Under the pieces are notes generated by a model. The model was not told the origin of the DNA, searched no databases, and saw only the letters and a program-made list of their open reading frames with translations. A program made the position numbers and the translations under genes. A DNA stretch of 24,456 nucleotides from Sulfurimonas sp. (GTDB lineage: Bacteria > Campylobacterota > Campylobacteria > Campylobacterales > Sulfurimonadaceae): NCBI GenBank assembly GCA_022712775.1, contig JAFLJZ010000218.1, positions 1-24,456 of the forward strand, written 5' to 3'. Positions 8,054 to 14,586 of this stretch are shown in pieces. Position 1 is the first letter of the stretch; each line of letters opens with the position of its first letter.

Positions 8054-10372
<2,319 letters not shown>

Positions 10373-10381
10373 TTATTTTCC

Positions 10382-11449
10382 TTATATTACTATCGGCATA
10401 ACAACCGTTTTAAAATTTTCGTCACTTAAAATAAAAGGTAAGTTACCTTCATTAAGACCTATATTAAACTCAGAATTATTTATAGTATTTAAAAAATCTA
10501 ATAAATATCTACTGTTAATTGCTATAACAAATGGTTCGCTAAAACCTGTAGAAAAACCTATTTCAGTTTTTGCTTCAATATTATCATCACTTAAAGATTC
10601 AAAAGTAATAGTTTCGTTTAAAAATGTAATTTTTACATCTGTTGATATTGTAGTTATTTGTTTTATAGAATCTATCATTGCAGCCTTTGGTAATAAAAGA
10701 TTGTTTGCAGTTTCTTTTGGAATAATTCTAGAGTATTCTGGAAATTTACCATTAATTAATTTAGTAAAAAATGTATATTGATCAGAATGTATTATTAAAT
10801 TAGTCTCATCATAATAAAGCTCTATATCATTAAAAAAGAGTTTTTGTATTTCAACGATTGCTTTTTTAGGAAGTATAATCGACAATTCAGTACTACCTTG
10901 ATTTGGTAATGTTACTACAGCTAGTCTTCTTGTATCTGTAGAGGCAAAATTAATACTATCCGGCTTGATATCTATTAAAGCACCATTTAATTCAAATTTA
11001 GGGTTATTTGTATCAATAGCTGGTGTAACTTTTTTTAATGATTCAATGAGAGAGAAAGAATCGATACTTATACGATTTTTTCCTTCATAAGATGGAAATT
11101 CTGGAAAATCATTATGTTGAAATGTTGGTAATTTAAAATTTGAATGCGATTGAGAAATATACAACATTTCATTTTTAACTTCTAAGTTAATATCTCCATC
11201 TTTTAAAATTCTAATAATATCTAATAATTTTTTACCATTAGCAGTTGTACTACCATCACCAATTATATTTACATTATTTGTTTTTATAAAATAACCTATT
11301 TCATAATCAGTAGCTTTAATAGTTAAAGTGCCATTTGAAACATTAATATAAACATGAGATGTAATTTGAGAAGTATCTTTTTTTTCTAAAAAAGGAGTAG
11401 CTTGAATTAAAATATTTTCCATGATTGATTTAGAAACAATAATCTTCAT
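10382..11449 (-). CDS. dnaN: DNA polymerase III beta sliding clamp
   Basis: 355-aa ring clamp of the replisome, also the platform for regulatory inactivation of DnaA. Three DNA-clamp repeats are visible. The start is at MKIIVSKSIMENIL; landmarks include LKDGDINLEVKNEMLYI, the second-repeat STDTRRLAVV and the C-terminal FVIAINSRYLLDFL with the ending VVMPIVI. AGGAT precedes the ATG. The leader and ribosome-binding site lie within the AT-rich side of the putative unwinding region of oriC, so initiation and dnaN transcription share the same DNA. Confidence 0.97.
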   Translation of the reverse strand: MKIIVSKSIMENILIQATPFLEKKDTSQITSHVYINVSNGTLTIKATDYEIGYFIKTNNVNIIGDGSTTANGKKLLDIIRILKDGDINLEVKNEMLYISQSHSNFKLPTFQHNDFPEFPSYEGKNRISIDSFSLIESLKKVTPAIDTNNPKFELNGALIDIKPDSINFASTDTRRLAVVTLPNQGSTELSIILPKKAIVEIQKLFFNDIELYYDETNLIIHSDQYTFFTKLINGKFPEYSRIIPKETANNLLLPKAAMIDSIKQITTISTDVKITFLNETITFESLSDDNIEAKTEIGFSTGFSEPFVIAINSRYLLDFLNTINNSEFNIGLNEGNLPFILSDENFKTVVMPIVI

Positions 11450-11496
11450 ATAAAATCCTATATATTATATAATTTTAGTAAGTAGTAGTAGGGGGG

Positions 11497-11513
11497 AGTG
11501 AATATGTGAATAT
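11497..11513 (-). promoter_or_regulatory. Two tandem DnaA boxes next to the DnaA-trios
   Basis: AGTGAATAT and TGTGAATAT (minus-strand ATATTCACT and ATATTCACA) overlap by one base and directly follow the G-run. They are in the same orientation, as needed to load a DnaA filament onto the adjacent trio strand. Confidence 0.65.
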
Positions 11514-11567
11514 CACTTTTGTAGCCCTATTTTAAGAGATGTTTAGATGTGATGAACACTTCCATCT

Positions 11568-11586
11568 CTATTCACACTTATTCACT
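11568..11586 (+). promoter_or_regulatory. Two tandem DnaA boxes at the dnaA 3' end
   Basis: CTATTCACA and TTATTCACT in the same orientation, one base apart, 30 bp past the dnaA stop codon. They face the 11497-11513 pair across a 54-bp spacer. Confidence 0.6.
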
Positions 11587-12923: not shown

Positions 12924-12953
12924 ATGGTGCCTTGTTTTTTGATGTATATGTGA

Positions 12954-13029: not shown

Positions 13030-14031
13030 TTAAAATAACCAAGAAACGACAATACTACCTACACCATGTGTATCTTTTTGTAATTCAAATTGTTTAGTAG
13101 TTTCAAAAGCCATTAAATCAATAACGAGACTTTCATAACGCAGAGTAGCACCAGCCCCGTAGTAAGCTACTAAAGGCTTTTTTTCTACGGAGTGGCTACT
13201 CTTGAATGTATTTCCATCTAAAAATATATCTCTTACAATTACGGATCCAGCAGCTGTAAAGTTAAAACTAAAACTCCATGGCTTTGCCTTCATATTTGTG
13301 TATGCACCATATACTGGAATGCCAGGGTCCGCTCCTATATCTATGGAAGAAACACCATAGTCTTTAGGAATATTCCAACCAATTCTAGCCATCATTCCCC
13401 CACTTGCATTTATAGAGATATTTCCTAGTTCTGCAGACAAGTAAGGAACAAGGGAAGCTTCTAAGTTATTTGATACTTTTGAGTAGTATCTCCATTTTTG
13501 TGTGTATTCGAGTGTGATTCCAAGTTCATTTTCAAGTTGGTTAGACCATCCATGCACGGTAGCTGTATCAATTCGTCTATGAAACTCATTTTGTATTTGT
13601 TGTGAACCAGAGGCAGGACCTATAACACCAACTTTTAATGATAAAGAGCGAAGTTGCGTTTTTGTTGTCTTATGCATTGTTGTTTCAAAGTAGGTCCAAC
13701 CAGCGTAAGGTCTATCATCAGGAATAAGCTCTCTTGTTAAAGTATCCGTTGGTGTGAATATTTGATTTGTTAGTGAAAAGGTTATGTAAGAGTATGTTTT
13801 TTTATCTTCATAACCAAGCAAGTTATAAAGTGTATAGTTTTCTTGTGGTATATAATAAAGTGCAGTTATTCTCTCTCCAGTCGAGTAATCATTATCTGTA
13901 CCAAAGTATTTATCATTTTCAATATAAATATTTAGCCTATCAAAAATCCAGTCTTTGTCATTTTTTATTTCTTCTTGAGCAAATAAAGTGGATGATAAAA
14001 GTATAAATAGTGTGCTTAGTAAGTATTTCAT
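13030..14031 (-). CDS. LpxR-family lipid A 3'-O-deacylase, outer-membrane beta-barrel (DUF2219)
   Basis: 333 aa. Residues 1-19 are a signal peptide ([16 protein letters not shown]). The family landmarks are [17 protein letters not shown] (39-55), [11 protein letters not shown] (104-114) and GPASG followed by H151 in FHRRI and a WxNQLxNE segment. These match the Asn/Asp, Thr/Asp, His and Glu that form the LpxR active site. The protein ends in Phe after alternating hydrophobics (SIVVSWLF), typical of an outer-membrane barrel. The expected role is removal of the 3'-acyloxyacyl group of lipid A. There is no Shine-Dalgarno, and a TATAAT box starts only 8 bp upstream of the ATG. It lies between oriC and ruvC. 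Confidence 0.85.
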
Positions 14032-14044: not shown

Positions 14045-14075
14045 TCGAAAAAATTGCTTTATTTAATTTTTTGTA

Positions 14076-14081
14076 TATAAT
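14076..14081 (+). promoter_or_regulatory. ruvC: -10 box (TATAAT) of ruvC
   Basis: TTGTATATAATGC: perfect -10, start near 14088 and a leader of about 22 nt with AGGAAG at 14101-14106. It lies inside the upstream frame extension, so it favours the ATG at 14110 as the true start. It is divergent from the LpxR-like promoter. Confidence 0.6.
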
Positions 14082-14109
14082 GCAAGTCTATATATATTTT
14101 AGGAAGAAA

Positions 14110-14586
14110 ATGATTATACTTGGAATAGACCCGGGGACTAGAAACATGGGGTATGCTCTTATATCTTTAGAGAAGGGGAAAATCTCTTTAGTTGAAGCAG
14201 GACTTATTAAAATGAAAGCCGAAGTACTGCAGTTTCAGATTCCACAAATGACTGAAGGTTTAAGTACAATATTCGGGAATCATGCCATAGATGAAGTTGC
14301 GATGGAAGATATTTTTTATGCACACAATCCGGCTACTACGATAAAATTAGCGCAGTTTCGTGGGGCCATTATGTTAAAGATTTTACAAGAGTTTGGGCAG
14401 TTTAGTGAATATACAGCGCTTCAAGTAAAAAAAGCACTTACTGGCAAGGGAAAAGCCTCTAAGGAGCAAGTAAATTTTATGGTAAAAAGACTTTTAAACA
14501 TAAAAAAAGAGATAAAGCCCCTAGATATTTCAGATGCTATGGCGGTTGCTATAACACACTCTCAACGTGTAAGGTTAAGAAAATAA
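14110..14586 (+). CDS. ruvC: Holliday-junction resolvase RuvC
   Basis: 158-aa dimeric endonuclease that resolves Holliday junctions with RuvAB. The four acidic catalytic residues are present: D7 ([12 protein letters not shown]), E66 (AMEDIFY), D139 and D142 ([10 protein letters not shown]). The frame is open from 14071 via a TTG, but ATG 14110 is chosen for AGGAAG 3 nt upstream and for the canonical N-terminus [10 protein letters not shown]; the extension is also crossed by the -10 box. ruvC close to dnaA is a common arrangement in Campylobacterota. Confidence 0.97.

Follow-up and report, generated by a model that had tools for sequence, protein, structure and literature searches.

A DnaA-trio array with a conserved one-base register slip in the dnaA-dnaN spacer of a Sulfurimonas-like campylobacterotan

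The 24,456-nucleotide (nt) stretch of Sulfurimonas sp. DNA studied here (contig JAFLJZ010000218.1, called the window throughout) carries dnaA, dnaN and gyrB in a row, and the 166-nt spacer between dnaA and dnaN holds an array of DnaA boxes and DnaA-trios (Table 1). A sequence-only reading had proposed that this spacer is a replication origin (oriC) with the basal unwinding system (BUS) of Bacillus subtilis, in which AT-rich DNA, the trios AAG TAG TAG TAG (11480-11491), a G-run and two tandem DnaA boxes (11497-11513) follow one another. A check of the sequence found each of these elements at the place given, in the correct order and with the correct polarity, and the assignment to an origin of this type is well supported. 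The description of the architecture as textbook did not hold: after three in-phase TAGs the register slips by one base and TAG-TAA comes next, and the AAG counted as a fourth trio is a mis-parse. We present below the conservation of the array and of its register slip, then weigh what they may mean for the DnaA filament.

Table 1. Features of the origin region and of its neighbourhood in the window, from ruvC to gyrB
Feature	Position	Strand	Remarks
ruvC	14071-14586	+	PF02075 (9.7e-52)
LpxR-like outer-membrane gene	13030-14031	-	PF09982 (1.2e-79); between ruvC and dnaA
oriC1-like cluster of DnaA boxes, upstream of dnaA	12924-13029		cores at 12950, 12975, 12992, 13006, 13014
dnaA	11616-12923	-	Pfam: PF00308 (2.5e-63), PF08299, PF11638
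Opposite-orientation DnaA box	11578-11586	+	TTATTCACT
Opposite-orientation DnaA box	11568-11576	+	CTATTCACA
Conserved TAGGG upstream of the boxes	11525-11529	-	TAGG in 52/77 spacers here
Second co-oriented DnaA box	11505-11513	-	ATATTCACA (dnaA strand), TGTGAATAT as located in the window
Trio-proximal DnaA box	11497-11505	-	ATATTCACT (dnaA strand), AGTGAATAT as located in the window
Five-G spacer, box to trios	11492-11496	+	length almost constant, sequence variable
Proximal DnaA-trios TAG-TAG-TAG	11483-11491	+	CTACTACTA on 71/77 spacers
Extra base G, between trio 3 and trio 4	11482	+	shifts the register
Distal trio pair TAG-TAA	11476-11481	+	one base off the proximal register; dnaA-strand TACTA invariant (56/56)
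AT-rich DNA unwinding element	11450-11475		2 G/C in 26; overlaps the dnaN leader
Probable dnaN ribosome-binding site	11456-11459	-	AGGA on the dnaN strand, read from the sequence
dnaN	10382-11449	-	Pfam: PF00712, PF02767, PF02768
gyrB	8054-10369	-	Pfam

Relatives were taken as the best 80 of 146 by dnaA; in the genome collection these closest relatives bear mostly Sulfurimonas titles, with a top identity of 91%. Four loci without a dnaN match were dropped (L013, L024, L055, L078), and the remaining 76 dnaA-dnaN spacers were compared together with that of the window, 77 in all. From one spacer of 1,468 nt (L039), where an early stop probably interrupts the dnaA frame, the dnaN-proximal part alone was used. 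Conservation of the trios across related spacers had been proposed as a check, and it was borne out: three in-phase [C/T]TA units (dnaA strand) adjoin the tandem boxes in 77/77 spacers, which means that the trios are conserved together with the boxes. The six spacers that depart from the common nine bases of these trios differ only in having one or two trios that begin with T in place of C. In the spacers whose register slips, each of the three proximal trios has an invariant middle and third base (56/56 rows).

The boxes are kept in the same tight arrangement. In the window the two co-oriented boxes overlap by one base, which puts their cores at 8 bp spacing, and this period was found in 76/77 spacers (11 in the last); the distance from proximal core to trios is 11 in 72/77, 10 in 4 and 8 in 1. 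Both odd values are automatic calls on the same row, L052, where the proximal core is changed. The trio-proximal TTCAC core is exact in 55/77 spacers, with one mismatch in 20 and two in 2, and the core of the second box is exact in 72/77 and has one mismatch in 5. The G-run fared differently from its neighbours. In the window G occupies 11491-11496, that is the G of the final TAG plus five more, and in this sense the run is there; across the 77 spacers its length is nearly constant while its sequence is free, with CCCC (dnaA strand) inside the gap in 17/77; over 56 slip-class rows the corresponding columns carry 0.10 to 1.22 bits. The gap is richer in G and C (mean 0.56) than the spacers overall (0.27), and a G-run as such is not kept, which rules it out as a conserved signal. 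This variability agrees with results in Helicobacter pylori, where the GC-rich stretch is reported not to be crucial for unwinding and may set the distance (PMC8235120).

The array is unique in the window. The sequence TAGTAGTAG has a single occurrence among all 24,456 bases, a pair of TTCAC cores with three trios after it was found at one place when both strands were scanned, and the order box-then-CTA was found on the minus strand only, with 0 matches on the plus strand. When the 166-nt spacer was put through 20,000 dinucleotide shuffles, none of them gave perfect cores with relaxed trios; allowing up to one mismatch per core gave one case with strict CTAx3 and 68 with relaxed trios, and CTAx3 alone arose 59 times. 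A chance origin of the array is ruled out by these shuffles.

We then come to the register slip, the one feature of this site for which we found no description in the passages of DnaA-trio papers that were covered, figure supplements (e.g. Figure S8 of PMC8235120, on the trios of Epsilonproteobacteria) lying outside these. Column conservation was computed on 56 of the 59 slip-class rows, L023, L052 and L070 being left out for a core-to-trio distance other than 11. The parse that is conserved, on the plus strand, is TAG-TAN, one extra base, then TAG-TAG-TAG. The middle base of the supposed AAG (plus 11481) is the least conserved of the array, at 0.18 bits (on the dnaA strand T 20, A 19, C 13, G 4), while TA and CTA just beyond it are invariant. 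A conserved adenine is described at the middle position of trios (PMC8287927), so AAG is best taken as a mis-parse, and its place as trio 4 is ruled out by this variability. The extra base itself varies (dnaA strand, C 48, A 7, G 1), and columns 16-32, counted from the trio start, are nearly pure A/T. Counted in the same way, the distal CTA is displaced from the phase by one base in 59/77 spacers, where it stands at offset 13; it is in phase in 15/77 (offset 12, one row at 15), and in three spacers (L076, L077, L079) five units run on before the slip, which comes at offset 16. No [C/T]TA was found at offset 11, 14 or 17 in any of the 77 spacers.

To place the slip in a wider frame, 60 stretches from 150 genomes of the class, picked for spread, were surveyed, the line around the family being set by dnaA identity. 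Six stretches (L101-L106) fall within the family, some of them identical or near to members of L001-L080 (the L104 spacer is the L065 spacer); CTA stands at 13 in five of the six, and CTG in L102. In the 54 stretches outside the family, the distal CTA is in phase only in 31, in phase 2 in 2 and mixed in 1, so that 31/34 of the arrays with such a CTA keep it strictly in phase, with the reserve that the scoring favours in-phase starts. An irregular array, with trio-like units partly at four-base steps, follows dnaA in L124 (CTAACTAACTATTACTAACTA). On a tree of the dnaA protein, built by a quick method with support from the Shimodaira-Hasegawa-like approximate likelihood ratio test (SH-aLRT) only, the slip label takes 7 changes, 4 of them forced by starred branches, and starred branches force 3 changes of the in-phase label. 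Slip against in-phase, with L076, L077 and L079 left out, requires at least 6 changes, meaning that both states are viable and have been interchanged several times. The simplest history would start from an array of about five trios, all in phase; an ancestor of the family would have gained one base behind the third trio, and some descendants would later have reverted.

The mechanism expected for the site draws on work on its relatives, from which DnaA binding, duplex opening and looping here are inferred. In B. subtilis a filament grows from two co-oriented boxes, and pockets of DnaA capture the bases of each trio, Asn187 contacting the middle adenine (PMC10721633). The adenine-contacting residue is present in the window DnaA: Asn174 aligns with Asn187 (residues counted by hand), and Asn was found at this motif in 75/75 pattern matches among the 80 loci. 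In H. pylori the trios are required for unwinding, and potassium permanganate (KMnO4) footprints place the start of opening 3 nt beyond the box in the downstream direction and show modified thymines in the first trio (PMC8235120). At the window site, DnaA would first occupy the boxes at 11497-11513, AAA+ domains would line up on the plus strand with one protomer for each TAG, from 11491 towards dnaN, and the duplex would open in the trios first, in the AT-rich dnaN leader next. The first opening had been predicted at 11450-11480; this DNA is AT-rich (G/C at 3 of 30 positions from 11450 to 11479), and with the H. pylori footprints in mind the start is to be expected in the trios as well. The three proximal trios would be the strict core and the distal TAG-TAA an extra, weaker site, reached by DnaA looping out or skipping base 11482, while the inverted boxes (11568-11586) and the oriC1 cluster would hold the complex through looping.

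The way in which DnaA deals with the additional base is a matter of hypothesis. In the slip class the filament may either stop at three protomers or skip one base onto the distal pair, and the invariance of this pair leads us to favour skipping. The alternative that survives best is that only the in-phase trios are used, the distal TACTAAAA being kept for another purpose, for instance as a dnaN promoter or leader element, or as the edge of the AT-rich element; we regard it as a serious possibility, short of an even chance. The distal element does sit in the dnaN leader, trios 1-3 are the essential ones in B. subtilis and three is the minimum (PMC10721633, PMC8287927), and if one reads on in phase, the middle base of trio 4 is variable and that of trio 5 is G (trio strand), which would halt the filament at three. 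In those B. subtilis trios, a middle G or T gave less growth and initiation than a C (PMC10721633). Against use of three trios only stand the 31/34 in-phase distal CTAs outside the family, and the description of H. pylori DnaA as covering five perfect trios (PMC8235120); taken together, these two make a trio the simplest ancestral role for the distal element. A promoter role also leaves the empty offsets 11, 14 and 17 unexplained.

The same empty offsets bear on a second alternative, somewhat doubtful in our view, in which the slip is a tolerated one-base insertion of the Sulfurimonadaceae ancestor, devoid of mechanistic meaning. The repeated changes on the tree suit such neutrality, since both states work, as does the variation of the extra base itself. 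Unconstrained drift should nevertheless have populated offsets 11, 14 and 17, and the TA and CTA that flank the variable position would not be expected to stay invariant in 56/56 rows. Should the slip have a function, one could imagine a 3+2 device proper to the Sulfurimonadaceae, in which the first protomers sit on three trios of rigid spacing in single-stranded DNA, one base is looped out, two further protomers sit on a second pair, itself in register, and the break limits or times filament growth; we put this forward tentatively and would not bet on it. If true, a DnaA filament need not keep three bases per protomer throughout. Whatever its explanation, the slip offers a natural test of whether DNA has to be read by the DnaA filament strictly three bases at a time, as related species carry both states.

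What can be said of the site as an origin draws on DNA beyond the array. We determined directly its sequence, conservation, phase and phylogeny. The GC-skew minimum that had been proposed as a check was found in a complete relative (G133, dnaA 84% identical, at 111-1412, with the slip-type spacer L101), where the cumulative minimum lies 12.3 kb before the start of the record, 400 kb having been examined. Five DnaA box cores lie within 200 nt upstream of dnaA in the window, and at least 2 are present there in 77/78 relatives, compared to 8/75 in a control stretch (two of the 80 loci were left out as too short). DnaA box clusters thus flank dnaA on both sides as in the bipartite oriC of Epsilonproteobacteria, and the upstream cluster and the spacer boxes together fit the class-wide bipartite origin (PMC5043019). 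That the boxes would merely regulate dnaA and dnaN while replication begins elsewhere is very improbable, given the conserved array, the skew turn close to dnaA in G133 and the P1 nuclease mapping published for Sulfurimonas denitrificans (PMC5043019).

Several observations weigh on the other side. For the three species studied in PMC5043019, in vitro work did not confirm binding to head-to-tail box pairs. The 77 spacers are kin, hence their counts are not independent, and in the class survey 17 stretches outside the family had no distal CTA, and no array was found in 3 of the 60 (L152, L156, L157). The GC skew of the window has no clear turn at 11.5 kb, and in the other long contig tested, G001, which includes 21,889 N, the trough is broad (about 80-180 kb, with its bottom at 101 kb) and dnaA lies at 173 kb, a curve only loosely consistent with an origin at dnaA. 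Any reading of the distal pair by DnaA is itself inferred. All considered, we estimate at roughly 85% the probability that a Sulfurimonas-like campylobacterotan has here the part of its chromosome origin where unwinding takes place (oriC2), working by the mechanism proposed. Judged on the comparative evidence, it is an origin of a known, published kind.

Some further features of the locus deserve mention. A GTGAA core was found within the first 80 nt of 75/77 spacers, and TCATCAC, which resembles a weak DnaA box, stands mid-spacer in 44/77 (the L001-L080 set and the window). The conserved TAGGG, whose end is separated from the outer box downstream by some 11 nt, does not match a DnaA box; it is possibly a site for another origin-binding protein. 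An AGG-type stretch precedes dnaN in the listed relatives too. The order ruvC-dnaA-dnaN-gyrB of the Epsilonproteobacterial bipartite oriC is broken in the window by the LpxR-like gene, its dnaA-dnaN-gyrB part being kept. Among the 80 loci, many of which end early on that side, the LpxR-like gene lies upstream of dnaA only in L001 and L002; a homologue lies downstream, on the other strand, in five further loci.

An oriC2 with a DnaA-trio is not new. In Epsilonproteobacteria oriC2 is the dnaA-dnaN spacer, where DnaA-dependent unwinding was mapped with P1 nuclease in 2016 for Arcobacter butzleri, S. denitrificans and Wolinella succinogenes, and a DnaA-trio was remarked in all three (PMC5043019). 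The site of the window resembles these oriC2 in its position, its TTCAC core, its trio and the presence of oriC1 upstream of dnaA, as well as in the orientation of the boxes, the one proximal to the DNA unwinding element (DUE) facing it and the DUE-distal one being opposite. It differs by the LpxR-like gene that parts ruvC from dnaA; moreover a single DUE-proximal box was confirmed there, whereas a fused pair is what conservation points to here. In the part of PMC5043019 covered, a register slip was not found mentioned for these species. The Campylobacter jejuni oriC likewise comprises an intergenic DUE and DnaA boxes, with part of the dnaA 3' end, but its trio is degenerate and it is devoid of a GC-rich region (PMC6052347), unlike the window. 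Similar in layout is H. pylori oriC2, with its fused or overlapping ts1/ts2 boxes (B. subtilis boxes 6/7 are another fused pair described), GC spacer, trio array and AT-rich region (PMC8235120); its five perfect repeats contrast with the three, extra base and two of the window.

Compared to the B. subtilis BUS (PMC6669920, PMC10721633), the window shares two co-oriented boxes beside the trios, a short GC spacer (its G-run not kept across the relatives), an AT-rich region and the polarity of the trios, 5'-TAG-3' on the strand with the trios 5' of the boxes being equivalent to the B. subtilis 3'-GAT-5'. Such box pairs occur in 57% of predicted BUS and are not strictly required. The box sequence is another one in B. 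subtilis, and its six trio repeats (PMC8235120), in one phase like the five of H. pylori, differ from the three plus shifted pair found here; five or six trios are typical, not required, by the published search rule of at least 3 contiguous NAN trios (N, any base) within 16 bp of a DnaA box (PMC8287927). Three TAGs five bases from the box are what the window presents to this rule. As it asks for contiguous motifs only, the rule would not join the shifted pair to them, and slips in other origins may have escaped notice in the same way.
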